Assembly: GCF_016907355.1 (NCBI RefSeq)
Contig: NZ_JAFBBW010000001.1
Coordinates: 1,736,001-1,800,000, forward strand
Origin: Agromyces aurantiacus
GTDB taxonomy: Bacteria > Actinomycetota > Actinomycetes > Actinomycetales > Microbacteriaceae
DNA length: 64,000 nucleotides
Reading direction: 5' to 3'
Below are positions 34,359 to 51,732 of the stretch, in pieces. The notes below the pieces were generated by a model. That model was not told the DNA's origin. It was given only the letters and a program-made list of their open reading frames with translations, and did no database searches. Positions within the stretch are counted from its first letter, which is position 1; each line of letters begins with the position of its first letter. A program made the translations under genes and the position numbers.

Positions 34359-34403
34359 GAGACGCACGACGGCCCGGGCATCGCCCGGGCCGTCGTGCGT
34401 CTC
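34359..34403. terminator. Perfect 21-bp hairpin between secA and the cyclase gene
   Basis: A 21-nt arm at 34359-34379 pairs without mismatch with 34383-34403 around the 3-nt loop ATC; the arm core is GACGGCCCGGGC. The right arm ends inside the stop codon of the convergent cyclase gene. It can terminate transcription from both directions. No T-tract is present. Confidence 0.8.
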
Positions 34404-35658
34404 ACGCGTCGTCGCGAGGCCCGTCGAGGAACCACGTGCGCATCGTGCCCATCCCCTTCACCTCGATGGTGCCGCGGGCGTGCATCGCGAAGACGCCGGC
34501 GAGTTGCTCGGCGACCGGGTCGGTGAGCTGGATCGACCCGTCCGGCGCGGTCGACTCCATGCGGCTCGCGGCGTTCACCGTGTCGCCGTAGACGTCCCAC
34601 AGGAAGCGCGACTCGCCGATCACGCCCGCGACGATCGGCCCCGTGGCGATGCCGATCCGGAGCACGATGCCGCGCCGCCCGCCGATCGCGGAGGACGCGG
34701 CGATGGCGCGCAGCCCGAGCGCGAAGTCGGCGAGCGCGCGGAGGTCGCCCGCCTGATCCGGGCCGCCGGTGATCGCCAGGTACGCATCGCCGATCGTCTT
34801 GACCTTCGTGACGCCGAGCCGGGCCGCGAGCACGTCGAACGCGCCGAGCATCCGGTTGAGGTCGTGCACGAGCCGGTCGGCCGTGAGGGTCTCCGAGAGG
34901 CTGGTGAAGTCGACGATGTCGGCGACCAGCACGCCCACGCCGTCGTAGCGGTCGGCGATCGGATGCTCCCCGGCGACGAGGCGTTCGGCGATCGGTCCGG
35001 GGAGGACGTTGCGCAGGATGCGGTCGGAGCGGTCGCGCTCGTCGGCGAGGGCCGCCGCGAGCCGGTCGCGCGAACGGACGTAGGCGCGCATCGCCAGGAA
35101 CATGATGATCGACACCGAGACGATGTTGATCGCGAAGAACATCGTCACGACCCAGGCGTCGATGGCGGGCGCGCGCGACTGCAGGACCCCCTCGAAGGGT
35201 GCGAGCCCGATGACGATCGCGACGAACGCCGCGAACACGAGGGCCGGCCGCCGCACGCTGCTGAACGACAGCGCGCCGACCGGCGCCGCCAGTGCGAAGA
35301 GGACCACGGCGCTGCTGTTGGCGAAGCCGCCGAGGGCCACGTGCACGAGTGGCGGCAGCGTCAGGAACATCGCGGTCTGCGAGAACCGGAACCAGCGGTC
35401 GTCGCGCGTGGCGCGCAGGTGCACGAGGCCGATGATCGAAGCGACGATGTAGACGGTCGGGATGGCCGCGGCGACCGGGAGGCCGATCGCGTAGTAGAAC
35501 GCCGTCCACGGCGTGATGACCACGAGCGTGAAGACGGCCGTGCGGGTCAGGACGGACTTCTCCATCCGACGGCGGTCATCGTCGCCCGCTGCGTATCCGA
35601 TCGAGCCGACGGTCGCCACGAGGTCGGAGACGCGGGCCGGCACCGCGAAGCGCTCCAT
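34402..35658 (-). CDS. Membrane-bound class III adenylate cyclase
   Basis: A 418-residue protein: six membrane helices (residues about 40-190), a short coiled linker (RDRLAAALADERDRSDRILR), then a class III cyclase domain. Metal aspartates lie in VADIVDFTSLS and KTIGDAYLAI; the lysine of KTIGD and the aspartate of LWDVYGDTVN are the adenine-specifying positions; N and R of VNAASRMES are transition-state residues. All are present, so ATP-to-cAMP activity as a homodimer is expected. The six-helix plus cyclase layout resembles the Rv1625c-type, though HAMP is not obvious. It is convergent with secA. Confidence 0.92.
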   Translation of the reverse strand: MERFAVPARVSDLVATVGSIGYAAGDDDRRRMEKSVLTRTAVFTLVVITPWTAFYYAIGLPVAAAIPTVYIVASIIGLVHLRATRDDRWFRFSQTAMFLTLPPLVHVALGGFANSSAVVLFALAAPVGALSFSSVRRPALVFAAFVAIVIGLAPFEGVLQSRAPAIDAWVVTMFFAINIVSVSIIMFLAMRAYVRSRDRLAAALADERDRSDRILRNVLPGPIAERLVAGEHPIADRYDGVGVLVADIVDFTSLSETLTADRLVHDLNRMLGAFDVLAARLGVTKVKTIGDAYLAITGGPDQAGDLRALADFALGLRAIAASSAIGGRRGIVLRIGIATGPIVAGVIGESRFLWDVYGDTVNAASRMESTAPDGSIQLTDPVAEQLAGVFAMHARGTIEVKGMGTMRTWFLDGPRDDA

Positions 35659-35709: not shown

Positions 35710-36162
35710 TCACAGCACGCTGATGACGCTCGCCCGCCAGCGCTCGTCGAGGCCTTCGAGCCGGATGGCGACCGCGCGCGACCTGGCCCGCTGGTGGACC
35801 ATCACCACGGCCTCGACGATGCCGTCGGCGGGCTCGCCCATCACGATGCGGCCGACCGTGAAGGCCGGGCGCTGCGCGACGACGCCCTTGACCCGCCGTG
35901 CACGGGCAGCCAGCACGACGCGCTTGCCGAGGTTGCGGTAGACGTCGTCGGTCACCCAGCGCGCGAGCTGCTCGAGGTCGCGGGCGCCGGCGAGGACCTC
36001 GATGACGCAGTGCGTGAGGTTGCGCAGCAGCGGCTCGGGATCGGGCAGCTCGGCACGGCCGGAGCGGCGGCGGGCGAACTCGTCGTCGTCGAAGTCGAGT
36101 CGCCGCGCGGACGTTCCGAGGATCGCGGTGCGAGGCGGCGCGCTCTGCTGGCGTGCGGTCAT
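35710..36162 (-). CDS. Rv3235-family protein
   Basis: A 150-residue protein. The N-terminal 40 residues are polar; the conserved part reads LLRNLTHCVIEVLAGARDLE, then QLARWVTDDVYRNLGKRVVL and GEPADGIVEAVVMVHQRARS. This matches the actinobacterial Rv3235 family, found near secA1 in M. tuberculosis. Function is unknown; the fold looks like a small alpha/beta domain. The ATG at 36162 was chosen because the frame upstream becomes proline-rich and enters the intergenic region. It is the last clear core gene before the island. Confidence 0.82.
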   Translation of the reverse strand: MTARQQSAPPRTAILGTSARRLDFDDDEFARRRSGRAELPDPEPLLRNLTHCVIEVLAGARDLEQLARWVTDDVYRNLGKRVVLAARARRVKGVVAQRPAFTVGRIVMGEPADGIVEAVVMVHQRARSRAVAIRLEGLDERWRASVISVL

Positions 36163-36343
36163 GACGGCTCCAGTAGGGTGGGGCGGTCGTCGTGCTGCGA
36201 CGACATCGTGCCCCCTGTTCGGGGGCCTGCGGGGGTCTTGAGTGAACCGTAGGGGCCCGGGCGGCGGGGTGTCAAGGAAATCCCAGCCATTGGCCAATGA
36301 GCGGTTCGGGTAGAGCACCATTCCAGACGCTCATGGCCCCCCG

Positions 36344-36526
36344 CTAGTCATCGATTGGCCACCAATCCCGGTCGCGATTCGATTGTCCAATCCAGACGGG
36401 TCCGTCCGAAGTACGGATCTCAATATGGCCGTTTGGTCCGGCGGACTCCACTGCGCGCAGTAGGTACTGAACGTCTGCCTCTGTTCCCTCGAGCGTGGAA
36501 CCGTTGGAGAGCTTGATGTGCGCCAT
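36344..36526 (-). CDS. Small hypothetical protein, paralogue of the one at 41234-41413
   Basis: A 60-residue protein starting MAHIKLSNGSTLEG and ending QSNRDRDWWPIDD. It aligns along its whole length with the protein at 41234-41413 (shared pattern MAHI-LxNG, QYxL, PNGH, T-DG, IGQxNR-R-W). The conserved upstream word GGAGTACC is also shared and probably includes the ribosome binding site. The alternating hydrophobic pattern suggests a small beta-rich domain. Function is unknown; the duplication within the island argues that it is real and translated. Confidence 0.7.
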   Translation of the reverse strand: MAHIKLSNGSTLEGTEADVQYLLRAVESAGPNGHIEIRTSDGPVWIGQSNRDRDWWPIDD

Positions 36527-36542
36527 GGGGCGCACGGTACTC

Positions 36543-36695
36543 CTAAATGAGATACCAAAGTGGATCAAGAGCGTATCCGAGGAGGGCGAACGCTGCCACC
36601 ACGATGAGCAGGACCCCAGATCGGCACTCCCCATCCGCCAGGCATTCCGCGGCTCCCCCCGCGGGGTTGACGGCCGCCGCCAGCAGGTGAATCAT
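36543..36695 (-). CDS. Possible small membrane protein
   Basis: A 50-residue frame beginning MIHLLAAAVNPAGG with a C-terminal hydrophobic helix (SGVLLIVVAAFALLGYAL). It ends 16 nt before the MAHIKL gene on the same strand. No good ribosome binding site is visible and no family is recognised, so the call is weak. Confidence 0.3.
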   Translation of the reverse strand: MIHLLAAAVNPAGGAAECLADGECRSGVLLIVVAAFALLGYALDPLWYLI

Positions 36696-36794
36696 CCGAA
36701 TAGGGGACGGACAGGCGTAGAGCACCGACGAGCACTCGCGTACTAGAACAGCAGCTCACCGAATGGGACGCCGAAGCGGGTCAGGGGGAACCGC

Positions 36795-37913
36795 GTGCCA
36801 ATTAGTCTTGCTGCGTATGCCGACGCCGTAGAGCACGTGTACGTTGCCGCAACTGACCCTGATGCCTGGCCATCGGCTATGGAGGCGGTCCGGACGGGGT
36901 TCGACGCGCTAGTCGTCGCGTTCCTGGCGGCCGCCCCGGGCCATCGTCCTATCGTGGCGAATGCGGGGTTGCCCGCCGAGGCGATCGCGAGCTATGAGGC
37001 GTACTACGGGCGCTTGGATCATGTCGCACGCCATTTTCAACTACCTGGGACGGGGATCGACGTCGCGCTTCCAGCCGATGCGTTCGTGGGATGGGAGGAC
37101 CGCCACCGCAGTGAGTTCTTCCACGACTGGGCCGAACCGATCGGCATGGGCGTGTTCATCGCAGGAACAGCTTTCTGGCGTAAAGATGCCGTCAACTGGC
37201 TGGCGGTCGTTGGTCGACCCGACCAGTCGTCGATCACCGACAACGACAGCATCCGGGCGTTTCGCGGTCTGTTGCCCCACATCCGCAGGGCGGCTGACCT
37301 CCACACTCGACTGGACGAGGCCGCGGCGCGCTTCGCCGGCGCGGCAGACGCCTTGTCGCGATTCCCGCACGCAGTCGCGCTGATCGGCGACGGCGGGAGG
37401 TTGTCGTACACGAATCCCGCCGGAGAGGCGCTGTTTGCGACACGCGACGGGCTATGGATTGACCGCGGCGGCGTCTTGCACGCTCAACGGTCGAGTGACG
37501 AAGCAGCCTTGCGCAGATTGATCTTGCTGGCCACCCGGGGCAACGACCTGGGTGTGCGATCGGGAGGACGCATCGTGATAGCCCGCGAGGCGTGCGGGCT
37601 CCCGTTGCTGCTGTTCGTCGTTCCGACCGGCAGAGAGAACAGCGTTTCCTCCGCAATTGTGGTTGGGATCGCCGCCGAGAAGCCCTCGACGGTATCGGTC
37701 ACCGCGCTGCAGGAGTTGTTCGGCCTTACGCGCGCGGAGGCCGAAACCGCGCGACGAGTGGTGCGCGGCCTCGGTCTGCAGCACGCCGCAGAAGACGCTG
37801 GCGTCACACTTTCGACCGTCAGGGCTCAGTTGCAGCGCGTCTTCGAGAAAACCGGCACCCACCGGCAAGCGGAACTGGTCAGTCTCGTCGACTCTCTGCA
37901 GCTTCGTATCTGA
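36795..37913 (+). CDS. LuxR-type HTH transcriptional regulator
   Basis: A 372-residue protein with a C-terminal LuxR-type helix-turn-helix (residues about 305-365): LFGLTRAEAETARRVVRGLG, then HAAEDAGVTLSTVRAQLQRV and FEKTGTHRQAELV. The N-terminal 290 residues are a PAS/GAF-like sensor region (FPHAVALIGDGGRLSYTNPA is PAS-like). This architecture is frequent in proteobacterial genomes and rarer in Microbacteriaceae. Base composition is below that of the core genes, consistent with transfer. The start is GTG at 36795 with GGGGGA upstream. Its target is unknown; no operon partner is adjacent. Confidence 0.82.
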   Translation: MPISLAAYADAVEHVYVAATDPDAWPSAMEAVRTGFDALVVAFLAAAPGHRPIVANAGLPAEAIASYEAYYGRLDHVARHFQLPGTGIDVALPADAFVGWEDRHRSEFFHDWAEPIGMGVFIAGTAFWRKDAVNWLAVVGRPDQSSITDNDSIRAFRGLLPHIRRAADLHTRLDEAAARFAGAADALSRFPHAVALIGDGGRLSYTNPAGEALFATRDGLWIDRGGVLHAQRSSDEAALRRLILLATRGNDLGVRSGGRIVIAREACGLPLLLFVVPTGRENSVSSAIVVGIAAEKPSTVSVTALQELFGLTRAEAETARRVVRGLGLQHAAEDAGVTLSTVRAQLQRVFEKTGTHRQAELVSLVDSLQLRI

Positions 37914-38104
37914 CCGCCTCAATTCGCCGCGACGAGGGGCGGCGAACGCCTGCCGCCGGCATCGCGCTCACGAGCCGGCGTGAGAACTTCATCCATTCAT
38001 ACGATGAGATACCCGTCGTTCCGGCACAGCATCAGAAGACGCCTCCGCGAAGTTGAACGGAGACCTAATTCATACGCTACCGATCTTGATCATGGGGGAA
38101 GATT

Positions 38105-38437
38105 GTGGAAGCTAAGACGATACGCGTCGTCTGGAGTTCGGCGTCGTCCGGCTGGAAGAACTTCAACTGGGATGGAGTAATCACGGCGAACTCCGTGGTC
38201 CATATCTCGGCAAGCGAGCTTGTCTTTCCAGGGAAGACTTTCAATCCGATCGGAACTTTCCGACACAGGGGCGAGGCACCCATTTGGGTGAAGAACGTCC
38301 GACCGCATGGTCCAAACCCAGGTGATTCGATCACTGGCGGCGTCGAGTTTTATTTGGTGGTGGAGTGGGGCAAGCCCTTGACTGTCGCGACCGATATCAC
38401 AGTGCTGGGTGATCCGGACGACGTGGTCACCGTCTAG
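38105..38437 (+). CDS. Hypothetical protein, beta-rich
   Basis: A 110-residue frame with GGGGGA upstream of its GTG start. The protein is rich in beta-forming residues and aromatics (IRVVWSSASSGWKNFNWDGV; GGVEFYLVVEWGKPLTVATD) and has no membrane segment or signal peptide. It resembles a small beta-sandwich or lectin-like fold in pattern only. Codon use is low in GC. No family recognised. Confidence 0.55.
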   Translation: MEAKTIRVVWSSASSGWKNFNWDGVITANSVVHISASELVFPGKTFNPIGTFRHRGEAPIWVKNVRPHGPNPGDSITGGVEFYLVVEWGKPLTVATDITVLGDPDDVVTV

Positions 38438-38450
38438 GCCGCATTGATGA

Positions 38451-38765
38451 ATGCGGAGGGGCATCGCGACCTATTTCGACGGACCCGACAAATGGCTTGC
38501 CATTTCCGGCGACGGAATTCTTGTCGAGCGATCACCCGATTTGCTCGTAGTTGCCCCCGCCGCGGTGGGACAGCTCGATCAACCCGGGTTCGACTGGAGT
38601 CCGGCCGCGAGGGCGGGTGGGCATCCCCAGATTGGGGTGCACTCGGCTCCATGCGCTGGGACCCAAGAATGGCGGCATGCGGCGAGTCTGCTCAGGTATC
38701 AGGCGAGTGCCCGCTCGGACTTATTCCTCCGACGACACGCGCTCCGAAACATGCTCATGCCGTGA
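38451..38765 (+). CDS. Possible truncated hypothetical protein
   Basis: A 104-residue frame whose first 45 residues look coding (IATYFDGPDKWLAISGDGIL, VERSPDLLVVAP), while the remainder is arginine-rich and runs across the 19-bp repeat at 38651 in another frame. I read it as a gene cut at the repeat junction, with the tail being read-through. There is no clear ribosome binding site. Confidence 0.3.
   Translation: MRRGIATYFDGPDKWLAISGDGILVERSPDLLVVAPAAVGQLDQPGFDWSPAARAGGHPQIGVHSAPCAGTQEWRHAASLLRYQASARSDLFLRRHALRNMLMP
38651..38669 (+). repeat. 19-bp start-like repeat, copy 1
   Basis: ATGCGCTGGGACCCAAGAA. It matches the 5' end (MRWDP) of the decayed gene at 45859, but the sequence on either side is unrelated. 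Consensus of the four copies is ATGCGCTGnGACCSRRGAW. Confidence 0.6.
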
Positions 38766-38872
38766 TGTTCGGTGATGTCGGGATGTCACCCAAAATGGTC
38801 ACACGGCGCGGGTTTCTGCGAGGGCGCCAACCCCGTACCGTTTGAGGAACGAATCCAGGGAGGGGGGAACCC

Positions 38873-39388
38873 GTGATCGATTTTCCGGTCGCGCTCCCCG
38901 TTGGAGTTCGCACATCATGCGACTTGCCGCGCAAGACCGGGAAGTTCCAGCACACTTGGCTCGATACGGACGTTCCCGAGCACGTTGACGAGCATGCGAA
39001 GCTCGTCAATGGAGATCTTCATCCCCGGCTGAAGAAGCGAGAGCACCTTGACGCCCTAGGCCAGCTTCGCTCGTTGAAGACGCGTGCGGCGCGAGGCCAG
39101 CTTCCAGTCAGCCGCGACAACACTGGACGGGCTCGCATCATGCAGAGCGTCCCGTACTTGCTCGAACTTCGTCCCGCGTTCAATCAGGGCAATCCTCCAC
39201 CCCGACTGATACGTCTGTATTATGCAGAACCAGCCCAGGTTCAGGGAGCCCTGCTACCACTGGTACTGAGCACGAAGCCGAACGGTCCTGACCCACTCGG
39301 CGAGCAGAACGCGTCCCTTCAGGATGCGAAGGCGCGCAGCAGGCTCTGGCTGCTGACGCGGCAGTCATCACGAGCGACGAGGAGATAG
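38873..39388 (+). CDS. HigB/RelE-like toxin candidate
   Basis: A 171-residue protein. The second half has the compact RelE-like pattern: VPYLLELRPAFNQGNPPPRL, then IRLYYAEPAQVQGALLPLVL and STKPNGPDPLGEQNASLQDA followed by ARSRLWLL. Proteins of this type (HigB-like mRNA interferases) precede their HTH antitoxin, exactly the order seen here. The GTG start follows AGGGAGGGGGG. The first 75 residues are an unusual N-terminal extension; an internal start closer to the RelE domain is possible. The antitoxin begins 3 nt downstream. Catalytic residues cannot be assigned confidently. Confidence 0.6.
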   Translation: MIDFPVALPVGVRTSCDLPRKTGKFQHTWLDTDVPEHVDEHAKLVNGDLHPRLKKREHLDALGQLRSLKTRAARGQLPVSRDNTGRARIMQSVPYLLELRPAFNQGNPPPRLIRLYYAEPAQVQGALLPLVLSTKPNGPDPLGEQNASLQDAKARSRLWLLTRQSSRATRR

Positions 39389-39391
39389 CGC

Positions 39392-39760
39392 ATGGGAGAG
39401 ATGTACCGCGCGCGCGGAGTCTTCGACGACGAGAAGATTGCGCTGGCTGCCTCGAACTATGAGGCGCAGGAGTGGCTCGTTCGCGAGCTAGGTAAGGCCT
39501 TTCAGATGAGCCGGCTCTCCGTTGAGGAACTCGCCAGCGAGCTCGAACTTGAGCCAACGGAGGCCAGGGAATGGCTGGACGGCGAGGTTGATCTGACCCT
39601 GACTGAGCTACGGCACCTCGCCAACGCGATTGACGCACATGTCACGTACCGCGTCGGCGCACTCAAGACGCTCTACTCTGACAGGTTGCGCGAGGTCGAG
39701 AGTGACGCCCCTTGGATTGCTACCGCTCCTTGGGGCAAGGCGGAGTACATCGACGCATGA
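39392..39760 (+). CDS. HTH antitoxin candidate (HigA-like) with aromatic tail
   Basis: A 122-residue protein. Residues about 25-90 form an XRE-like helix-turn-helix (FQMSRLSVEELASELELEPT, EAREWLDGEVDLTLTELRHL, ANAIDAHVTYRV). The last 25 residues (VESDAPWIATAPWGKAEYID) are a distinct tryptophan-containing tail. GAGGAG lies upstream of the ATG. Position directly after a RelE-like gene identifies it as the probable antitoxin and autorepressor. Its stop overlaps the next start as ATGA. The tail is reminiscent of the chaperone-addiction segment of HigA antitoxins in toxin-antitoxin-chaperone loci; that is inference. Confidence 0.65.
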   Translation: MGEMYRARGVFDDEKIALAASNYEAQEWLVRELGKAFQMSRLSVEELASELELEPTEAREWLDGEVDLTLTELRHLANAIDAHVTYRVGALKTLYSDRLREVESDAPWIATAPWGKAEYIDA

Positions 39761-40185
39761 GCGATCACCCCGTCAAGTTCGGCGTCTCGCTCCACAGAAT
39801 CGAACTTCACGCTGGTCCGCTACCCGATGAGGACCATTTCCAGTGGTCGCTCTGGACTCAGGCGGGTGCTGGCGACTCGGTTCTGGTGTGGGGCTATGTC
39901 CGCCGAGGAGCTCAGACCGGCTTCGGCCAAGCGCAGAGTTTCGGGGTGGTGCTGGATAGGACTTGGACCGAGATTTCCGCTTCGGAGGAGTCCAGAGCAG
40001 AGTTCAGCGAATGGGTAGCAGCCTACGCGTCAGAGCTTCTCTGGGATGCAGCGCGTCGGGCGCTTCAGGCACAGGCGGCACTGATGGACTTCCAGTTCGA
40101 CCTCGACGTGCTCGCACCACCAGTCGAGCTTGAGTTCAGGGCCGAGCTCGAGAGCCCGTCGGTTGCGGCCGACGCCAGAAGATGA
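39757..40185 (+). CDS. Third gene of the TA operon, possible SecB-like chaperone
   Basis: A 142-residue soluble protein, coupled to the antitoxin by an ATGA overlap. It begins VKFGVSLHRIELHAGPLPDE and continues with alternating beta strands (FQWSLWTQAG; DSVLVWGYVRRG; FGVVLDRTWTEIS). A long helix and a closing segment follow: WVAAYASELLWDAARRALQA and ALMDFQFDLDVLAPPVELEF. SecB also has a four-strand sheet followed by a helix that ends near a PP motif and about this length, and M. tuberculosis Rv1957 is a SecB-like third gene after HigBA. No sequence identity to SecB can be claimed by eye; it could equally be an unrelated DUF. Confidence 0.55.
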   Translation: MSDHPVKFGVSLHRIELHAGPLPDEDHFQWSLWTQAGAGDSVLVWGYVRRGAQTGFGQAQSFGVVLDRTWTEISASEESRAEFSEWVAAYASELLWDAARRALQAQAALMDFQFDLDVLAPPVELEFRAELESPSVAADARR

Positions 40186-40428
40186 TCTGAGGTTCGTAGT
40201 CACGCCACTGGAGAGCAGACGCGTCATCGCGGCGAGCGTCGCATTCTTTGAGCTCTGCTCACCATCCCGAGCGATGGCGCGAAAGATGTAGCGCGCCCCG
40301 AGGCTAGGACGACCCGGAGAAGGCGCGAGCCTTGACTCGGCGCTGAACCCCGCGGCCACGGCTAGGGCATGTCTGGCAAGTCCTAGACCCCGATGGCTTC
40401 TGCGAGACGGCTGCGCATCGCGTCATGC

Positions 40429-40647
40429 TCATCTTGTGACTCCCAGGGGTGACCCGGGTCCGCCCACTACCGCCGCAAGCAGATTGCCCTTTCCCTCATC
40501 CGGCTGCTTGCGGCCTTCGTCACGCTTGCTGTCGCGGACGATCCGAAGTGGTAGTCGCTCGCCGGGCATCTCGCGACCGCTTGCGAAGCGAGTGATGGGC
40601 TGCAGGTAAGTCGCCCACGACGCCGTGATCGCTTCGAAGGAAGTCAC
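40429..40647 (-). CDS. Small hypothetical protein coupled to a DUF2510 gene
   Basis: A 72-residue frame beginning TSFEAITASWATYLQPITRF. The GTG start at 40647 overlaps the stop of the DUF2510 gene as GTGA, and codon use is protein-like (RLPLRIVRDSKRDEGRKQPD). It is otherwise unrecognised. The coupling is the main support. The 243 nt between its stop side and the TA operon contain no gene I can support. Confidence 0.42.
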   Translation of the reverse strand: MTSFEAITASWATYLQPITRFASGREMPGERLPLRIVRDSKRDEGRKQPDEGKGNLLAAVVGGPGSPLGVTR

Positions 40648-41021
40648 GCGAGGAAGAACGCAAGGGTCGCCGTGATGCCGGCTAACACCAGGCCATTCAG
40701 CACGAAACCAACGATCCAGGATGCACGTGCCACGGCAGAGTCTCGGTGCGACTGGACAGCGCCGCCGACCGCAAGTCCGAGGCCGACAAGCGCCGAGCCG
40801 ATGGCCATCAGTGGGACCGGGACCAGGAACGAGGCGCCGGCGATCATCCCAGCTAGCACTGAGAAGGCACCGAAGATTCCGTTTCGCGTTCTCCTGGGCG
40901 ATGCCGTTTGCTGCACTTGCGGAGCCCGCGGACCCCACGAGTCCCCGTCCCACCAGCGCTGCTGAGTCGGATCGTACGGGTCCGGGTACCAGCCCGCGGG
41001 CGCGGTCAGCTGCTCGCTCAT
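40644..41021 (-). CDS. DUF2510 membrane protein
   Basis: A 125-residue protein. Residues 8-30 are the DUF2510 motif (APAGWYPDPYDPTQQRWWDG), a short aromatic domain found at the cytoplasmic N-terminus of many actinobacterial membrane proteins. Two or three hydrophobic helices follow (IFGAFSVLAGMIAGASFLVP; LMAIGSALVGLGLAVGG; WIVGFVLNGLVLAGITATLA). A TAGACT -10 box (41033-41028) ends 6 nt before the ATG, so the message is leaderless. Its promoter and first 15 codons are duplicated at the HTH gene ending at 45793. Confidence 0.8.
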   Translation of the reverse strand: MSEQLTAPAGWYPDPYDPTQQRWWDGDSWGPRAPQVQQTASPRRTRNGIFGAFSVLAGMIAGASFLVPVPLMAIGSALVGLGLAVGGAVQSHRDSAVARASWIVGFVLNGLVLAGITATLAFFLA

Positions 41022-41113
41022 GGGCGGAGTCTAACCGCGCTGTTGCGGCGGTGTCTCGGGGCTGTCCCGGAGGCATTGCACGAGATGCGCTGCGACCCAA
41101 GATCGCGTGAATC
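40981..41113. repeat. Duplicated DUF2510 promoter/start segment, copy A
   Basis: This segment runs from inside the DUF2510 gene, through its promoter, to the 19-bp repeat at 41095-41113. It is homologous to 45753-45877: shared blocks include CAGCCCGCGGGCGCG, CTGCTCGCTCATG and GGGCTGTCCCGGAGGC, with the -10 box at the same distance from the start. Confidence 0.7.
41095..41113 (+). repeat. 19-bp start-like repeat, copy 2
   Basis: ATGCGCTGCGACCCAAGAT. It directly follows the duplicated DUF2510 promoter segment; the sequence after it is unrelated to the other copies. Confidence 0.65.
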
Positions 41114-41233
41114 GTCCCCCATCGGCTTGGTGGTGCCTTATTTCGCAAGAGCTTTGGTTGGACCGTCCATCCGACGATGTCCGCACCGAATCACGCTCTA
41201 GTAGTCCAAAGCGGAGGCGGCATCGTGAACCGC

Positions 41234-41413
41234 TCAGTCCTCGACGAGTCGCCAGACCCGACCGCGGTTCGCCTGGCCGATCCTCACTTCACCGTCCGCG
41301 GTATTCAGCGTGACGTGCCCGTTCGGAACCGAGTCGATCACGTTCAAGATGTACTGCAGCTCCTCGGCGGTCAGCTGAACGATGTCGCCGTTGGCGAGTT
41401 CGATGTGCGCCAT
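41234..41413 (-). CDS. Small hypothetical protein, paralogue of the one at 36344-36526
   Basis: A 59-residue protein starting MAHIELANGDIVQLTAEELQ and ending GQANRGRVWRLVED. It matches the 36344-36526 protein over its whole length and shares the upstream GGAGTACC word. Paralogy within one island suggests either a repeated cassette component or a protein family that travels with such modules. Function is unknown. Confidence 0.7.
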   Translation of the reverse strand: MAHIELANGDIVQLTAEELQYILNVIDSVPNGHVTLNTADGEVRIGQANRGRVWRLVED

Positions 41414-41453
41414 GCGCCCAAAGGTACTCCCGGCATCAGAGCCGGCGCGCTCG

Positions 41454-41807
41454 TCACGTCCCCAGGACGTACCCCCTCCCACCGTTCGGGGCACCGCCCG
41501 GCGCATGCGCGCGCACGAACGCCCCGTGTACAGCCTCGAGCGCGGCCCGCAGCGTCCGGTACCGGCCGATGAGATGCTCCCCGAGCTCGGCGACGTATCC
41601 CACCTCAGGGCCGACGCGCACGATGCGCACGCGGCCGTAGTCGCGGCCTACGGAGTCCACGAGCGTCCAGACACCCGGCTCACGCTCGTCGGCGGCGAGG
41701 AACGGGTGCCAGCGCGGACGATACTCAACGGCCAACCGGCTCGTGCTCCTCTCGTGAGGCGCGCCGGCCCACGCGAGTTCAGTCCATGCTACGAGCGCTG
41801 TGCGCAT
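41454..41807 (-). CDS. Hypothetical protein
   Basis: A 117-residue soluble protein. The central part alternates hydrophobic and charged residues (PGVWTLVDSVGRDYGRVRIV, then RVGPEVGYVAELGEHLIGRY) and ends with a helix RTLRAALEAVHGAFVRAHA. Composition is nearer to the core genes than most of the island. It is divergent from the DUF3800 gene with 49 nt between starts. No family recognised. Confidence 0.6.
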   Translation of the reverse strand: MRTALVAWTELAWAGAPHERSTSRLAVEYRPRWHPFLAADEREPGVWTLVDSVGRDYGRVRIVRVGPEVGYVAELGEHLIGRYRTLRAALEAVHGAFVRAHAPGGAPNGGRGYVLGT

Positions 41808-41856
41808 CGCCGCGAGCCGGACGGCGGTGTCAGGGGGCCCGCCTACGATTGTGGTG

Positions 41857-42609
41857 ATGCTCTACGCGTACATCGACGAGACGGGCGACCGGGGGCTGGC
41901 CGGCAAGCCCGGATCCAGCCCTATCTTCGGTATGGCAGCGATCCTCCTGACGGAGGAGTCGGCTCGTGCTGTGCGCGCCGCTGTGAAGCAGCTGCGTGTT
42001 GAGTTCCGCGTCCCCGATGGCGTTGTGATGTCGTGGAAGGAGCACCTCAAGACGCATGCAAGGCGCATGCGGGCCGGGCAGGTTCTGAGCGCCATACCGG
42101 ACGTATGCCTGATCTACGTGTACTGCCAGAAGGATGCCGTCACTGGGCGGTACGTGCAGGATCGGGAACTGTTCTACAACTATGTCGCCCTGAAGATGTA
42201 CAAGAGCATCCTTTGGGCGGCTCGGGCCTGGAAGGGGCCCAATGAGCGAGTCAACACGCGCTTCGGCCATGTGCGAGGCCACGACCACAGGTCGACGGAG
42301 GAATACTTCCGTGCGCAGCGTCGGTACGAACGAACTGTCCCGTGGCACATGGAGAACGGGCTGCGGTGGGTGTCGGCCGACAGGTTTCTCGAGAGTCAGG
42401 CGGCAGATCTGTATGGCGGTTTTCTCCGGTCGGCGGTGTGGCCCGACGAGTTCGGCAACGTCGAGGGGCGGTTCATCCGCGATGTGTGGCATCAGATTCG
42501 CCGGGGGAATGGTAACTGTCCCGTGCCGCTGGGCCTCATGTCGATGCCTACGAACGAGCTTGTGAAGCAGTTTGAGTGGTATGAGTGTCCACACTGTGAG
42601 GCGGCATGA
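41857..42609 (+). CDS. DUF3800 domain protein
   Basis: A 250-residue protein. It begins with the DUF3800 hallmark YAYIDETGDRG and has SWKEHLK near residue 58 and the later acidic element SADRFLESQAADLYGGFL near 178; together these resemble an RNase H-like acidic active site. The C-terminus ends WYECPHCEAA, a single CxxC knuckle not usual for the family. DUF3800 proteins are common in mobile and defence regions; the substrate is unknown. The TACGAT -10 box at 41844-41849 lies 7 nt before the ATG (leaderless). Confidence 0.82.
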   Translation: MLYAYIDETGDRGLAGKPGSSPIFGMAAILLTEESARAVRAAVKQLRVEFRVPDGVVMSWKEHLKTHARRMRAGQVLSAIPDVCLIYVYCQKDAVTGRYVQDRELFYNYVALKMYKSILWAARAWKGPNERVNTRFGHVRGHDHRSTEEYFRAQRRYERTVPWHMENGLRWVSADRFLESQAADLYGGFLRSAVWPDEFGNVEGRFIRDVWHQIRRGNGNCPVPLGLMSMPTNELVKQFEWYECPHCEAA

Positions 42610-42809
42610 CAAAGGCCCGGTGGGGCCTCCAAGGGCCGATCCACTTAAGGAGTGCGGTGGCAGCACCGCTGGCGATCCTTGGCAGGCTCCACTAGGCCCG
42701 TCCCGTATACGTTAACACCCCTCGCCCACATTCGTCTGTACCCAGCTCGGGTGGGCTCTCACCGCGAGGCCGCGCGGTGTCATCTCACCACCGTCGATAG
42801 AGTGCCCCC

Positions 42810-43013
42810 ATGAGCGAACTCGAGAACATGACGCGAGCCGAAGCCCTTCAAGCCGCTGCGGACAGCTTCCTCCACGCCGAACGAGTTTGCCTCGATGCCT
42901 CGAGCGATGCCGCACCCCGGGATGGAGCGCTCTTCTACATGTCGGATGCGCTCGGCTCCATCGCCTACGGCCTGAAGATCCTGACCGCGGCGATCGCGAG
43001 CGAGGATCGCTAG
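42810..43013 (+). CDS. Small hypothetical protein
   Basis: A 67-residue helical protein (MTRAEALQAAADSFLHAERV; MSDALGSIAYGLKILTAAIA). A TAGAGT -10 box (42798-42803) ends 6 nt before the ATG, implying a leaderless transcript. Its stop codon TAG forms the first three bases of the -10 box of the next gene. No family recognised. Confidence 0.6.
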   Translation: MSELENMTRAEALQAAADSFLHAERVCLDASSDAAPRDGALFYMSDALGSIAYGLKILTAAIASEDR

Positions 43014-43016
43014 TCT
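43011..43016 (+). promoter_or_regulatory. -10 box overlapping a stop codon
   Basis: TAGTCT begins with the TAG stop of the preceding gene and ends 6 nt before the next ATG (43023). The two genes are thus packed with a leaderless promoter embedded in the stop codon. Confidence 0.5.
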
Positions 43017-43022
43017 CCGTTC

Positions 43023-43496
43023 ATGGAAGCCGCTGCGCTCTGGATCTCGTTTGTCTCCGCCGCCGCGACTATCGCGGCCGCCGTCATCGCTTGGTTCGCG
43101 CGCGCGGATTCTGTAAGGGCGGGCAACGATGCGCAGGCGGCGTCGGCGCGCGCGGCGCAGGCAACTGAGCAGATGGCGCAGATTCAGTCCCGGATCTTCG
43201 ATGGACCGCCGTGGGAAGTCGAATGGTTCGGAGGTGACTCGTATCTGCTCACCAACAACAGTCCAGTTGACGCCCACGACGTCCGCATCGACGGATACCC
43301 CGACGATGTCGTACTTCAGGTGGGCGAGGACCTGCCATGGGAAATCGGAGCGAAAAGCGCCGTGAAGTTCATGTTCTCGGCGAGCATGGGCCATGGCTTC
43401 GTGCGGGATGTCATCGTCACGTGGCAACGGGAGGGATCCGACGATCGCCTCACGTGGCGGCACCCGATTCCTCCGAGACTGGCGTCTCCTCGCTGA
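43023..43496 (+). CDS. Hypothetical single-span membrane protein
   Basis: A 157-residue protein with one N-terminal helix (ALWISFVSAAATIAAAVIAW, residues 5-24), a short alanine-rich coiled segment (AGNDAQAASARAAQATEQMA), and a beta-rich domain (VEWFGGDSYLLTNNSPVDAH, then DVRIDGYPDDVVLQVGEDLP). The design suggests a membrane-anchored immunoglobulin-like domain. Similar 'helix plus coiled coil plus beta domain' proteins are scattered through actinobacteria without known function. Confidence 0.7.
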   Translation: MEAAALWISFVSAAATIAAAVIAWFARADSVRAGNDAQAASARAAQATEQMAQIQSRIFDGPPWEVEWFGGDSYLLTNNSPVDAHDVRIDGYPDDVVLQVGEDLPWEIGAKSAVKFMFSASMGHGFVRDVIVTWQREGSDDRLTWRHPIPPRLASPR

Positions 43497-43557
43497 ACCG
43501 GTCGCTTCCCGGCACATTCCGTTCCTGGGCGCGGGGACCGTCGGCCAGCCGAACTCT

Positions 43558-43576
43558 ATGCGCTGTGACCGGAGAT
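43558..43576 (+). repeat. 19-bp start-like repeat, copy 3
   Basis: ATGCGCTGTGACCGGAGAT. It lies in a 279-nt gene-free gap (43497-43775). The sequence on both sides is unrelated to the other copies. Confidence 0.55.
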
Positions 43577-43775
43577 TGGCAGCGCTCGCGAAAACCGCCG
43601 AATCACGCCATATTTTGCGGGAGCGCGGGTTCGGATCGTGCATCGGATGATCCGCGCACGGAATCATGCTCGAAGTTCGGGGCACACTAGCTTCAACGCG
43701 CACCGCAGCTGTGTGCCGAAGAGGTGCTCCGGGCGCTCGTAGCCTCGCCTCGTACGATCCCGTTACGATCAGCGG

Positions 43776-44618
43776 GTGCACAGCGAATCGGGGCCAGAGA
43801 CGACACCTGAACAAGAAGAAGCGCACGCGGCTTGGATTGAACGGCTTGCGCGCGCGCTAACGTTCGGTGAACCGATTCGTGAGATGAGTGCGGACGTTGT
43901 CGCTCAGCTCGAAGCACACGTGGCCGCGAAGAAACCTGCTCGAGCGCGTGAGGAAATCGGCGCACCGCTCGGGCAGTTTCTTCTTGAGTTCACCCAGCTG
44001 GACGAAGCGATCAGCGTGGTGCTGGCCACGCTGCTGAATCGACATGAGCCCGACAAAGTTATCCGGGTCGTTCGCCAGATGACCACAAGTCAGAAGCTCG
44101 ATGCTATGGAAGGCGCCTTTCCCGACACATGGGAAGACGGTCGAGACATCATTCGCCGTATCCGCGAGCTCAACACCTATCGGAACGTTGTGGCGCACGG
44201 GACGTTCACGACGTTCCGTGTTGAACGGGATCAGCTCTTAGTGGGTCAGTGGTTCGCCATCTGGCGGCGAGGCAAGCAGCACTGGGTACATACAAGTGCC
44301 GGCGAGCTCGATCATCGCCGCTGGGAGGTGAATTTCGCCGCCGCCGTGCTGTACACGCTCGTGCTGGTGCTGATTGAACCGGAGGCCAGCCTCGAGGACG
44401 TGGACTTGTTCCGTGTCGTCGGCGTCGCGATTGCAACCATGCCGCCAGCAGATCATGCCAAGGACAACCCTCTTCGCGCGGTATTCATGTTCGACTGGTT
44501 TACGCCAACGAAGGCGTACATGGATGCTCTTGATTCCGGGGCTAGCGATCTGGGACGGCCCAGCCCCAGTGAAGGCATACGTCAAGAACTGCGGAAGCGT
44601 GGCAGGACGCCACGGTAG
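43776..44618 (+). CDS. HEPN-like hypothetical protein
   Basis: A 280-residue soluble, mostly helical protein. The segment IIRRIRELNTYRNVVAHGTF contains R136-x4-H141, the RX4-6H motif of HEPN ribonucleases, placed at the start of a helix after a hydrophobic helix pair (FLLEFTQLDEAISVVLATLL). Many HEPN proteins act as toxins or abortive-infection effectors, but others are non-catalytic. The start is GTG at 43776 with TACGAT 6 nt upstream (leaderless). No antitoxin such as MNT lies beside it. Confidence 0.65.
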   Translation: MHSESGPETTPEQEEAHAAWIERLARALTFGEPIREMSADVVAQLEAHVAAKKPARAREEIGAPLGQFLLEFTQLDEAISVVLATLLNRHEPDKVIRVVRQMTTSQKLDAMEGAFPDTWEDGRDIIRRIRELNTYRNVVAHGTFTTFRVERDQLLVGQWFAIWRRGKQHWVHTSAGELDHRRWEVNFAAAVLYTLVLVLIEPEASLEDVDLFRVVGVAIATMPPADHAKDNPLRAVFMFDWFTPTKAYMDALDSGASDLGRPSPSEGIRQELRKRGRTPR

Positions 44619-44755
44619 GAGCGTGCGCGCAGGGGCGAATGGATCAGTTCGTCCGGCCTCCCGGAATCGGGGCGAAGAAACTAGCCGCTATGGCATGGTG
44701 CGACCCGTGCCCCGGCCACTGAATGAATTGAGGCTCGGTCCTTCCGGCGCCGCTC

Positions 44756-45304
44756 CTATTCTTGCGGGCGCCGCTCGTCGGGCTCCAGACTCGCGTACGC
44801 CGTCACCGAACCGTTCTTGTTTACCCTGAACTCGTCCCGCGCGACGGCAAGCCAGATCCCGTGAGTGTCAAGGTCGGGCATGCTGATCAGCTGGAACAAG
44901 ATCGGGATGCGATGCCACAGCCGGTTGAGCCTCTCGAGCACTGACATAAACTCGGCTTCGTTCAAGGGGGCATCGCCTGGCATCTTGCGATCACCGCCGC
45001 TGGGAACGGCGGTCTCCTCGTCGACGAGCCACATCCAACGACGCAAGAGCAGCGCCCGGGCGTCCGAGAGAGTGGCTTCAGTGGCTGCGACCAATCCCAG
45101 CAGGTCGTCGCGCAGATCGGGTCGGGCCGAGGCGCGGACTAGATCAGGTACATCAGACAGCGGCGGCGGCTCCTCGGACATTGTCAGATGTGCAGCCCCA
45201 TCACGGAGCGCTCCTTCGCACAGCGTCACCTTGTGATGAATTGCTCCGGTCAGATACAGGAGGCGTTCTGCAGAGGAAAGGCAACTGGGCAGCTCGATGG
45301 TCAT
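44756..45304 (-). CDS. Hypothetical protein
   Basis: A 182-residue helical protein (LSSAERLLYLTGAIHHKVTL; LRDDLLGLVAATEATLSDAR; FMSVLERLNRLWHRIPILFQ). A TAGCGT -10 box (45317-45312) ends 7 nt before the ATG, so a leaderless transcript is likely; this decides the start at 45304 over one 30 nt upstream. No family recognised. Confidence 0.65.
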   Translation of the reverse strand: MTIELPSCLSSAERLLYLTGAIHHKVTLCEGALRDGAAHLTMSEEPPPLSDVPDLVRASARPDLRDDLLGLVAATEATLSDARALLLRRWMWLVDEETAVPSGGDRKMPGDAPLNEAEFMSVLERLNRLWHRIPILFQLISMPDLDTHGIWLAVARDEFRVNKNGSVTAYASLEPDERRPQE

Positions 45305-45427
45305 GCGCTGCACGCTATCCCACCCCAACCACATGCCGATCGGTCGTCCAAACCACTCAGCTGCAGAATCGCGGTAGTCCGGTCCTCGGGCGCGCCTTCG
45401 GCCGAATCTGTCAGGCGTCGGGCTTAG

Positions 45428-45793
45428 TCACTCGGCGGCAGCAGCACGGCGCAGCATCTCGCGGGCGAGTTCGAGATCGGAGAAGTCGCGGAGCGAGGGC
45501 TGCGTCATCGGTATGGATGCTTCGTCCGCCGTCAGATAACCGGCCGCTATGAGTGCCTCGACCGGGTTCCGGTTGTACGCACGGGCAATGGTCACAACCT
45601 GGCGCGGATCGGGGACGCTATATCCGCTCTTCCAACGGCTGATGGCGGATTCAGAGCTGCCCGTCTTGAGCGCGACTTCACGGCCGGAGTCTCGGCCTGC
45701 GACGGCGCGAACGTACTCGGCCCACGAGTGCTGACCCGCGGAACCGTAAGGCTCCGGGAGCCAGCCCGCGGGCGCGTTTAACTGCTCGCTCAT
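45428..45793 (-). CDS. Chimeric protein: DUF2510 start fused to an XRE-type HTH
   Basis: A 121-residue protein. Residues 1-25 (MSEQLNAPAGWLPEPYGSAG then QHSWAEY) are a DUF2510 start closely similar to the protein at 40644-41021, cut after the tryptophan core. Residues 26-121 are a helix-turn-helix region (ALKTGSSESAISRWKSGYSV; RQVVTIARAYNRNPVEALIA) of the type found in small phage- or plasmid-like regulators. The promoter is also shared (TAGGAT at 45805-45800, 6 nt before the ATG). It looks like a fusion that gave a regulator a borrowed promoter and start. Confidence 0.75.
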   Translation of the reverse strand: MSEQLNAPAGWLPEPYGSAGQHSWAEYVRAVAGRDSGREVALKTGSSESAISRWKSGYSVPDPRQVVTIARAYNRNPVEALIAAGYLTADEASIPMTQPSLRDFSDLELAREMLRRAAAAE

Positions 45794-45877
45794 GCGCAGA
45801 TCCTAGGCGCGGAGCAAGGGACGCGCCCCCGGGCTGTCCCGGAGGCGCGTCCGCAGCCATGCGCTGGGACCCGGGAT
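45753..45877. repeat. Duplicated DUF2510 promoter/start segment, copy B
   Basis: Homologous to 40981-41113, running from inside the chimeric HTH gene through its promoter into the 19-bp repeat at 45859-45877. The two copies carry scattered differences, so the duplication is not recent. Confidence 0.7.
45859..45877 (+). repeat. 19-bp start-like repeat, copy 4
   Basis: ATGCGCTGGGACCCGGGAT. It encodes MRWDPG in the same frame as the following gene relic and is therefore the copy closest to the presumed original gene. Confidence 0.65.
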
Positions 45878-46539
45878 TGTATATTCGGCCTCGATCCCGG
45901 TGAACAGGCCGCTTGTTCCGGCACGGCGAGCATGAATGTGCATCCGAGGACCTCGAATCGCAGCTCGACATCGAGCAGCAGCACGAGGAGCGCGCGCTCG
46001 CGCTCGAGACCGATCGCCTGCGGATAGCGCGTCTGGCCCCGCCCGGCCGGCTGTCGGCGATCGCGTCGTCCGCCGGCGACACCGAGAGCGTGCGCGTGGA
46101 ACTGGTTGGCGGTCCCGTGGCCGACCTCCGGCCGGTGTCGTCCGGTCGGGCCCGGCGAAGCGGCCGCCTCGGCGAGACCCGCGGTGGCCCCGCTTCGGCG
46201 CGCGCCGTGCAGTGCATCATCGCGATCAGGCGATGGCGGCGGTGTTCCCTGGACGGCACCAACTTGAGTCGAGCCTCCTCGTGCGGCCCGAGTCGACGGC
46301 CGGACCGACCGAGCGCATCGGCCTCGCGCTCGCGCTCGCGCTGCGCGATCTCGGCCGACGACGCCTCGGCGTGGAGGCCGCGACGCTGTACGGCCACGTC
46401 ACGGCACCATCGACCGACTCGGACTGGACCACCTCGACCTGGCGCTGCACAGGCCCGGCGTGCCACGGCGCTATCGTGTGACGTCGTTGGCTACCGGCTG
46501 ATTCCGTTCGAACGCGTCGTCCGCGTCTGGTTCCAGTGA
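45859..46539 (+). pseudogene. Multiply frameshifted relic of a conserved hypothetical gene
   Basis: A coherent protein can be read only by changing frame. It starts MRWDPGLYIRPRSR and hits a stop at 45901; the same frame resumes with EDLESQLDIEQQHEERALAL and TDRLRIARLAPPGRL through AVQCIIAI (to about 46228). The second frame continues AMAAVFPGRHQLESSLLVRP and GLALALALRDLGRRRLGVEA. A third frame gives GTIDRLGLDHLDLALHRPGV from 46403, then a stop; the first frame returns for YRLIPFERVVRVWFQ. I associate it from memory with a Microbacteriaceae protein beginning MRWDxLFxDLExQLD. At least three frameshifts and one stop make it non-functional. Confidence 0.75.
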
Positions 46540-46560: not shown

Positions 46561-46854
46561 TCAGTCGACGGGGCGAAGGCCACCGGCGCGCGCACCAGAG
46601 AGCTCGACGACGTTCGCGAAGTCTCCCTGGTGCCACGCCGAGTAGCGGCGCGTGGCCTCGTACTGCTCGTCGATCCAAACCTCGAGCTGAGTGCGCTCGA
46701 TGCGCCACGGCCCGCGCTCGCCCACCCGGATCGCAGGCAGCTCGCCGGAACGGATGAGCCCGTGCACGGCCTCGATGTCGACGGCGAGCACCTCCGCCGC
46801 ATCGGCGACGGTGAGGAAGCGGCCGATCGCATCGCCTGGGCCGTGTTCGATCAT
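46561..46854 (-). CDS. Excisionase/BldC-type helix-turn-helix protein
   Basis: A 97-residue DNA-binding protein. FLTVADAAEVLAVDIEAVHG and LIRSGELPAIRVGERGPWRI form the MerR-like winged HTH of the excisionase family, followed by ERTQLEVWIDEQYEATRRYS. In Microbacteriaceae a protein of this kind accompanies the gene decayed at 45859, so it is probably original chromosome rather than cargo. GATAAT (46866-46861) ends 6 nt before the ATG at 46854 (leaderless), which sets the start; longer frames are rejected. Confidence 0.8.
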   Translation of the reverse strand: MIEHGPGDAIGRFLTVADAAEVLAVDIEAVHGLIRSGELPAIRVGERGPWRIERTQLEVWIDEQYEATRRYSAWHQGDFANVVELSGARAGGLRPVD

Positions 46855-47405
46855 CACTCGATTATCGGCCCGGCCGATGGTGCCCGGAGGCGATGTGGAT
46901 AACTTCACGGCACTCTCTCGGAGTGCCTCCACCATGGTTTGCGACAGACCCCCGAGACGAGGCGGTCATGGCGGTTCGGGGTGCGCAACGCGACCCGGGG
47001 GAGCGCGGTCGGATCCATGCTCATGATGGGCATCGTTCTTGTGGGATTTCAGCGCCCAACAAAAGTACCGAGGTGCTTGTCGCTGCCGAGGCCTCACGCC
47101 CAGAACAGGCGTCGCGTCGACCGATATGCATGTCGAGCGCGCCGGCCTCGGCGGTCCCGCAGCTTAGTGCGCGCGCCGTGGTACATTTTCAGGCTCCCAG
47201 ACGGGCGATCGACCTCGTCGTTTCGGCGAATGAACATGCCGGCCGGCGCGCCAGAAAGCTGGCCACTACGCCCGATCCTGTTCCCCGGCCTGACGAACTG
47301 AGGCATCCAGATCGCCTCAATCTCGTGTTGGCTGTGTTCTTCCGAGAGAATGAGTCCGCGTGTCGTTCGCGCAAGCATCGACGGCGGCCGCAGACGGGGT
47401 GAGGG
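46855..47405. other. Gene-poor 551-nt stretch
   Basis: Open frames on the + strand here have no recognisable domain, an erratic residue mix and no ribosome binding site. No hairpin, repeat or RNA gene stands out. It may be a degraded junction between the HTH gene and the second accessory block. Confidence 0.5.
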
Positions 47406-49901: not shown

Positions 49902-50112
49902 GGCGCGATCGCGCCAGACTTCTCGCCCGCTTGTCCCGCCCGACCGTGTCCAGCGTGCCGCCCTGGCCATTGCGCCGGCATGCTCGGTCGCCGGTTGGCT
50001 GTCGACTCCGAGTTAACCCTCATGCCCAGCTCTGATGCTCCGATCCACGACGGGCTCGACGTCGAGGACCGGATGTCTACAACCCGAACTGCTGGACTCG
50101 AGCCTCAACTCG

Positions 50113-51682: not shown

Positions 51683-51692
51683 CAGTTGCTCC

Positions 51693-51732
51693 TTTAAACA
51701 TGTTTAAACGCCCTTAGGCATGTTTTATTATA
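51693..51732 (-). promoter_or_regulatory. hipBA promoter and palindromic operator
   Basis: On the - strand a perfect -10 TATAAT lies at 51732-51727. Between it and the ribosome binding site is the perfect 16-bp palindrome TTTAAACATGTTTAAA (51693-51708); its half-site CATGTTTAA recurs as CATGTTTTA at 51719, exactly 20 bp away. Two dimers could bind on the same face of DNA and block initiation, as HipB does elsewhere. No strong -35 is visible. Confidence 0.7.

Follow-up and report, generated by a model that had tools for sequence, protein, structure and literature searches.

In the genome of Agromyces aurantiacus, an array of small foreign units sits at the 5' end of MRWD, a conserved gene, within a 64,000-nucleotide stretch (positions 1,736,001 to 1,800,000 of contig NZ_JAFBBW010000001.1) that we refer to as the window. 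We moderately favor the view that this array grew by tandem accretion of att-flanked, integrase-less (CIME-like) elements at a single target, probably through recombination of the serine-integrase type. The units share ends and are foreign in composition, the array stops where native gene sequence resumes, and no PF07508 or PF00589 recombinase was found in it. The same target is empty in nearly all relatives of the genus in which the locus was read, and is occupied in two of them by elements carrying serine integrases.

An array of foreign units at the start of a conserved gene

A sequence-only reading of the window had reported four plus-strand copies of a 19-bp gene start as the borders of three accessory modules. 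All four copies were found, with the second beginning at 41085 instead of 41095. The number of matches to the 19-mer is weak evidence when taken alone: allowing up to three mismatches, the window has four matches where 0.97 would be expected, a number that was also reached in 1 of 100 shuffles. The genome-wide count of the pattern ATGCGCTGNGACC is stronger evidence than this shuffle test. It occurs five times in the 3.88-Mb genome, four of them within 7.2 kb and in one orientation, while the control, the same pattern read backwards, occurs 0 times; in 100 related genomes the pattern was mostly found 0–2 times per genome. The features of the region, with putative unit limits, are as follows.

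35710..36282, minus: native left flank (Rv3235-like gene and preceding DNA); homology to the closest relative, G009, stops at 36282
36283..38730, no strand: unit E1; left junction missing; GC 62.7%; genes 36344-36634 minus (small), 36795-37913 plus (LuxR-like), 38105-38437 plus
38651..38669, plus: repeat copy 1, right end of E1
38728..38756, plus: second motif, conserved downstream of copy 1; GA core 38731-38732
38733..41172, no strand: unit E2; GC 63.0%; genes 38873-39388 plus, 39392-39760 plus (HTH), 39757-40185 plus, 40644-41021 minus (DUF2510)
40941..41074, minus: E2 right-end block, DUF2510 gene start and upstream DNA, common to E4
41085..41103, plus: repeat copy 2, right end of E2
41170..41198, plus: second motif, conserved downstream of copy 2; GA core 41173-41174
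41175..43645, no strand: unit E3; GC 64.8%; genes 41234-41443 minus, 41454-41807 minus, 41860-42609 plus (DUF3800), 42810-43013 plus, 43023-43496 plus
43558..43576, plus: repeat copy 3, right end of E3
43643..43671, plus: second motif, conserved downstream of copy 3; GA core 43646-43647
43648..45945, no strand: unit E4; GC 62.8%; genes 43776-44618 plus (HEPN-like), 44756-45334 minus, 45428-45793 minus (DUF2510-start/HTH fusion)
45713..45846, minus: E4 right-end block, 72% identical to the E2 block
45859..45877, plus: repeat copy 4, right end of E4, ATG in frame with the MRWD relic
45946..45947, plus: rightmost GA core, at the return to native MRWD sequence
45948..46539, plus: relic of the MRWD gene (target), readable only with frame changes
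46561..46935, minus: native right flank gene (HTH_17)

The suggestion that a conserved gene survives as a relic behind copy 4 held up: the protein beginning MRWDLLFDDLESQL was matched in 58 of 60 genus genomes (one genome per species), and the window's own version is a relic only. The locus was read in 56 genus relatives. In 54 of these the order of the Rv3235-like gene and MRWD is unbroken and the site is empty; in the remaining two it holds an insert that encodes a large serine integrase. The MRWD gene starts exactly with ATGCGCTGGGACC, the 13-bp core of the repeat, in 29 of the 54 empty-site relatives; at least one base differs in the other 25, most of which are near-exact. Together with the lack of a PF07508 or PF00589 recombinase in the array, the empty sites and this gene start support the idea of repeated insertion at one target. 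At the left side of the array, native homology reaches furthest to 36297 in any relative.

GC content in the units is 62.7–64.8%, compared to 71% for the window. The three units with both ends kept measure 2442, 2473 and 2300 bp from core to core. An additional unit, at 36.3–38.7 kb to the left of copy 1, lay outside the three modules described earlier. E1 resembles E3 at the left, in the left-hand gene, and E2 resembles E4 at the right; a repeat search found no similarity among units beyond these blocks and the junctions. A Pfam scan of 15 array proteins (E 0.01) returned neither an integrase nor a transfer family. The sole PF07508 match in the genome (C1:397053) lies about 1.38 Mb from the array, and the two PF00589 matches lie about 0.33 and 0.88 Mb from it. 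Cargo is rarely shared within the genus: of the 11 proteins findable in their own genome, 2 match any of the other 59 genomes. The HEPN protein of E4 had no relative in the genome-contig collection.

A probable unit boundary downstream of the repeat

The sequence supports a unit boundary at a GA dinucleotide 80–88 bp downstream of the repeat, and not at the repeat itself. Native homology picks up again at window position 45945 (native +20), adjoining the GA, in 44 of the 54 relatives with an empty site; in the remaining 10 the alignment begins 3 bp to 455 bp further in. The GA core is 87 nt downstream of the ATG of copy 4, which rules out the repeat as the crossover point and differs from the earlier placement of the module borders at the repeats. 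The offset from repeat to GA is 80 and 88 at copies 1–3 and 87 at copy 4. The spacing between the repeat and the second conserved motif, around the GA, is almost constant at three copies; the ~60 bp separating repeat and core are poorly conserved. In the 12 nt preceding the GA, copy 4 matches copies 2 and 3 at 9 positions, as did 0 of 1500 random GA sites. The motif following the GA at copies 1–3 has no similarity to the native gene (p 0.29–0.98), ruling it out as a diverged copy of that gene. The DNA after copies 1–3, described previously as unrelated, thus has a common motif ~80 bp downstream of these copies, and related DNA (134 bp, 72%) is also found upstream of copies 2 and 4.

The attP sites of integrases are imperfect inverted repeats about the crossover. 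The composite site at copy 2 forms such an imperfect inverted repeat centered on the GA, pairing 15 of 26 positions, a score reached by 0.6% of 4839 GA sites. Copies 1 and 3 do not stand out (8 and 11 of 26), with some neighboring centers reaching equal values; summed over the three junctions, the scores give p = 0.009. A search of 36281-36345, at the leftmost junction, did not recover the left motif (p 0.56), and a hidden junction motif there is ruled out.

Serine-integrase elements at the same site in relatives

The two occupied sites carry quite different inserts. In G050 a 9.2-kb element encoding a 455-aa serine integrase is inserted into the MRWD site, and its junctions have only the GA of TTC-GA-CGACC in common. 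In G022 the insert is ~42 kb long and encodes a 492-aa serine integrase; its junctions share GACGATCTCG, which starts with the same GA. In the G050 element the half-sites are clearly palindromic (17/26). Its DNA matched the ends of E1–E4 in no more than one 22-nt stretch. A relative of the E3 gene at 41454-41807 is found in both inserts, 73–74% identical in the G050 element and ~40% in the G022 insert. Relatives of the G050 integrase (30 short-flanked loci and 8 others) had no MRWD or Rv3235 gene in their flanks. Since serine-integrase elements occupy the site in these relatives, a known type of recombination can explain the array; the earlier interpretation is supported in part.

In the mechanism we propose, the 5' end of MRWD would serve as attB, with crossover at the GA in codon 8, most likely catalyzed by large serine integrases. 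At least four foreign units (E1–E4, ~2.3–2.5 kb) would have been added successively to form the tandem array, an order of events that we infer. Each internal junction would then consist of the right half of one unit, the GA and the left half of the next, the internal GA boundaries being putative, and the rightmost junction would consist of a unit half, the GA and the gene. The leftmost junction was probably lost through deletion. The repeat would lie in the right end of every unit, before the core, reproducing the target gene's first 13 bp. Because of this copying, and of the frame kept at copy 4, the right end may once have provided a replacement start for the interrupted gene. A stop 15 codons into the frame that opens at copy 4 makes this idea less likely, as do the offsets at the other copies. 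As the units have no recombinase, the integrase would have been supplied in trans, possibly by a phage or satellite with the same site specificity, or lost by decay. Serine-type catalysis by E1–E4 and any present mobility are thus best regarded as putative.

Searches for related arrays and parent elements

We searched for a second genome with the array in family, species-representative and viral collections, and found none; the internal boundaries are therefore without support from another genome. A junction profile was run on 398 family genomes with stricter filters and rough E-values. It matched 76 of them at E up to 0.05, with a best match outside its own genome of 3.9e-4, compared to 2.8e-24 or better for its own three junctions. 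The matches elsewhere were judged to be due to chance after rescoring 11 loci and inspecting 8 alignments and the long ORFs of 9. The exact motif pattern was absent from the species-representative genome and viral contig collections, and no parent element with the ends of E1–E4 was found in the 398 family genomes or by exact pattern; nor was a recombinase acting on these ends identified. The array had no match among plasmids in near-identity mode. In BLAST against the 60 genus genomes the copy-3 end found, besides itself, short partial matches in 5 (E 0.0015–0.0095), and the E2 right-end block found short matches in 21 others, nearly all in the DUF2510-coding part. A 26-bp match to the junction core in G032 was rejected: it lies where an unrelated reading frame begins, the window genes used as queries are all missing from its surroundings, and the profile did not match there.

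Comparison with known systems

SCC cassettes can stack at one gene end. The array is likened to them by description: it lacks a PF07508 recombinase and has a different target, whereas SCC elements are described as serine-recombinase cassettes (PMC3146451). The Dehalococcoides ssrA islands, as described in the same source, are tandem, have at their borders a 20-bp direct repeat taken from the target gene, and are associated with a serine recombinase of the CcrB family; of 31 islands, 16 carry the integration module and 15 do not, the latter being proposed as possible cis-mobilizable elements (PMC3146451). The likeness, as far as that description goes, is in multiple tandem islands at one target gene, some without an integration module. 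However, the ssrA islands use the 3' end of their target and our units the 5' end of a protein gene, and none of our four units, of only ~2.4 kb, carries an integration module.

CIMEs are described as having no integration or transfer genes, keeping their att sites and stacking at one site (PMC5704250). E1–E4 likewise lack integrase and transfer genes and are stacked, and sequence supports putative GA-centered junctions at 38731, 41173, 43646 and 45946, with the leftmost missing. By that account CIMEs derive from ICEs or IMEs by decay, whereas no parent with these ends was found here. A further comparison is with the G050 element, which uses the same target gene and GA crossover and has a cargo family in common with E3. 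It differs in having its own integrase, a capsid-like gene (from our reading of its ORFs) and the clear half-site palindrome; the array encodes no recombinase, and its inverted repeat about the sequence-supported GA boundary is clear only at copy 2.

Islands that stack at a single attachment site, with recombinase-less members beside recombinase-bearing ones, are already known. If our interpretation is true, an array of four similar-sized units, none with a recombinase and each ending in a copy of the target start, would show how small cargo units could exploit the integrases of other elements. It also marks a gene conserved in the family as a hot spot for integration and offers directly testable att sites. 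It is doubtful that E1–E4 go further and are minimal ~2.4-kb mobile cassettes, with standard ends, exchangeable cargo and a substitute gene start, moved in trans by phage or satellite serine integrases. Such a class would be a serine-integrase counterpart of integron cassette arrays.

Alternative origins of the array

A realistic possibility, which we hold tentatively, is that the units are decayed remnants of larger integrase-bearing prophages or satellites stacked at the site, deletion scars that were never independent cassettes. This overlaps with accretion of CIME-like elements, which leaves decay or supply in trans open. The integrase-bearing inserts of 9 and ~42 kb in relatives, and the relatives of the E3 gene within them, fit such an origin, and decay of this kind is the described origin of CIMEs (PMC5704250). 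The phage-repressor-like gene of E4 (45428-45793) makes decay from phage-like elements possible: its HTH part matches phage repressor families (best E 7e-22). Phage families of unknown function are also hit by the DUF2510 protein of E2 (1.6e-7) and the DUF3800 protein of E3 (6.3e-6). However, no phage structural or replication protein was found among the 15 array proteins in Pfam or PHROGs, and the near-equal unit sizes are not expected from independent deletions.

Tandem duplication of a two-unit block of ~4.8 kb, with cargo later swapped by ordinary recombination and the repeats marking the duplication, seems unlikely to us. It would account for the left-hand gene common to E1 and E3, the right-hand block common to E2 and E4 and their spacings of 4.77–4.89 kb, but not for units that are otherwise dissimilar, for one motif common to all three internal junctions, or for an array that ends at the exact crossover used by an integrase in a relative.

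We consider very improbable a tyrosine recombinase or integron-like system with the 13–19 bp repeat as its core. Tyrosine integrases typically give tandem arrays with a target-derived repeat, as seen here, but native sequence restarts ~87 bp past the repeat start and the nearest PF00589 match is far from the array, so that no IntI tyrosine recombinase is adjacent. Moreover, copies 1–3 fold no better than shuffled DNA (z 0.29, −0.01 and −0.71), which rules out a single-strand hairpin site and differs from the foldable attC of integrons.

Finally, it is hardly credible that the repeats arose by chance or are motifs tied to promoters. With three mismatches allowed, a window would be expected to hold about one match, and copies 2 and 4 do lie upstream of related minus-strand genes. 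However, copies 1 and 3 have no such gene, ruling out a promoter of minus-strand genes, and this reading is already contradicted by the clustering of the exact genomic matches in one orientation and by the almost constant spacing between the second motif and three of the copies.

Four head-to-tail units in the start of a conserved gene

Four copies of the 19-bp repeat lie on the + strand, as the sequence-only reading had reported, its second position (41095) needing correction to 41085. A genome-wide search with the pattern ATGCGCTGNGACC gave five matches in the 3.88-Mb genome, four of which are the array copies, and a control pattern gave none; the fifth match is apparent coding sequence that is also present in two relatives. 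The last copy had been described as leading into the relic of a conserved chromosomal gene, and the MRWD gene of the window is indeed a relic with frame changes. In relatives, a conserved gene roughly 200 codons long (MRWDLLFDDLESQL...) starts with ATGCGCTGGGACC; it was matched in 58 of 60 genus genomes and, in a family-level sample of 398 genomes, in 247.

36283-38730: unit E1, repeat copy 1 at 38651 (+)
38733-41172: unit E2, repeat copy 2 at 41085 (+)
41175-43645: unit E3, repeat copy 3 at 43558 (+)
43648-45945: unit E4, repeat copy 4 at 45859 (+)
45948-46539 (+): relic of the MRWD gene

We read the MRWD locus in 56 relatives, that is, the 60 genus genomes less the window's own, two in which no MRWD match was found (G026 and G056) and one whose contig ends within the gene (G051). 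The empty sites that had been sought were seen in 54 of the 56 loci, with an Rv3235-like gene adjoining MRWD and no insert; upstream of this pair is secA, wherever the sequence read extends far enough to include it, and downstream is an HTH gene. In 29 of the 54 empty-site relatives the gene begins, as anticipated, with the exact 13-bp start. In the window, 9.7 kb of other DNA stands ahead of the relic. A cyclase-like gene (34402-35658) between secA and the Rv3235-like gene is found at that position in some relatives but not in all.

Unit boundaries and the role of the repeat

The repeat had been taken as the unit boundary, a view we abandon because native homology restarts about 87 bp downstream of the copy 4 ATG. 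On the left, native homology stops near 36282, extending to 36297 in the relative where it reaches furthest. On the right it restarts at 45945 in 44 of the 54 relatives, which is native position +20 and adjoins the GA used by an element in genome G050; in the remaining 10 the right-hand alignment begins further in. Copies 1-3 are followed by a common motif (38728, 41170 and 43643) whose GA lies 80-88 bp past the ATG, a distance corresponding to that at copy 4, with 0.04 occurrences expected by chance for a pattern derived from these same sites. Over the 12 nt preceding GA, copy 4 agrees with copies 2 and 3 at 9 positions and with copy 1 at only 6; none of 1500 random GA sites agreed at 9. A profile of copies 1-3 gives a weak match at copy 4, of 15.7 bits (E 0.004), and sequence past GA at copies 1-3 showed no relation to the native MRWD gene. 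We read the units as having a putative right end (the repeat, ~60 bp and a half-site) and a putative left end (a half-site), joined at GA.

The right end may have restored the start of the interrupted MRWD gene, since the copy 4 ATG shares the reading frame of the relic (at a distance of 87 nt, versus 21 in the native gene, with one stop between), GGAGG occurs 11 and 13 nt ahead of the ATG in E2 and E4, rather far for a ribosome-binding site, and the G050 element supplies MRWD with a new in-frame start.

Serine-integrase elements at the same target

The G050 element (9.2 kb, L116:2818-11883) is inserted at codon 8 of MRWD and encodes a 455-aa serine recombinase, with Resolvase and Recombinase domains above the Pfam cut-off and a zinc ribbon below it. 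GA is the sole sequence common to both of its junctions, and its half-sites form an exact 10-bp inverted repeat. In genome G022, a ~42-kb insert lies in MRWD codons 8-11, has GACGATCTCG common to its junctions and encodes a 492-aa serine recombinase with all three domains above the cut-off. Thus, with both inserts sitting there, the MRWD start is used by serine-integrase elements in this genus. The G050 element is satellite-like, with AAA-type and capsid-like genes labelled from ORF reading.

The main argument for a putative serine-type origin of the window's junctions is position, since site and GA both coincide with those of the G050 element. Inverted repeats lend this modest support: at copy 2 the composite site has inverted-repeat symmetry around GA at 15 of 26 positions, a score reached by 0.6% of 4839 GA sites, and copy 3 scores 11 and copy 1 only 8 (joint p = 0.009). 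No recombinase had been visible in the array, and all PF07508 and PF00589 matches of the genome fall outside it. The single PF07508 match is about 1.38 Mb away and did not match the integrase of G050 at a threshold of 1e-3, and the two PF00589 matches are at 2.11 and 2.66 Mb.

Cargo of the units

The GC content of the four units is 62.7-64.8%, below the 71% of the window and the 69.8% of secA. We searched 13 of the 15 array proteins, joined end to end, in the 60 genus genomes at 1e-6, leaving out two DUF2510-type proteins. The search recovered 11 of the 13 in their own genome; it missed the short 36344-36634 and 41234-41443 and is therefore uninformative on these. Two of the 11 recoverable proteins match in other genus genomes: a LuxR-like protein, in one genome, and the product of 41454-41807, from a small gene family that is common and scattered over many. 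Both inserts in MRWD, the element of G050 and the larger one of G022, also carry members of this family. The HEPN-like protein (43776-44618), whose RNVVAH motif we take to be HEPN-type, had itself as sole match at E 1e-3 among 5.8 billion proteins, and 22 relatives were found for the protein of 38873-39388. Among the 15 array proteins compared with PHROGs, the HTH part of 45428-45793 matches phage-repressor families (E 7e-22), the DUF2510 and DUF3800 proteins match families of unknown function, and two others match regulators weakly.

Close to their left ends E1 and E3 have a small gene in common, and E2 and E4 have a 134-bp right-end block in common, which suggests that cargo was exchanged between fixed ends or a two-unit block duplicated. 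In 45428-45793, an N-terminal DUF2510 gene start is fused to the HTH domain at the shared block of E4.

Relation to known systems

Passages of PMC3146451 describe Dehalococcoides ssrA islands that are tandem, bounded by a 20-bp target-derived repeat and served by a serine integrase, 15 of 31 being without an integration module and proposed as possible cis-mobilizable elements (CIMEs). The window array works like these islands in arrangement, and a general decay-and-accretion scheme is given in PMC5704250, where CIMEs are elements that keep att sites and have no integration and transfer genes. Within the terms and library searched, none of the listed papers describes an array of this kind at the MRWD gene. 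We file the array as behaving like a CIME array, with putative parentage and mobility; it is known from one genome, with one genome per species compared and the leftmost junction lost. No parent element was found, the family-wide profile search having used stricter filters and rough E-values.

Nearby, a further segment (47016-51820; 63.4% GC over 47100-51700) replaces about 1.6 kb, including a cpaB-like gene, relative to the closest relative, G009. It holds a PDC-S28 defence-candidate helicase (47406-49901) and a pair (50113-51682) that looks like HipA/HipB, a label from sequence reading alone.
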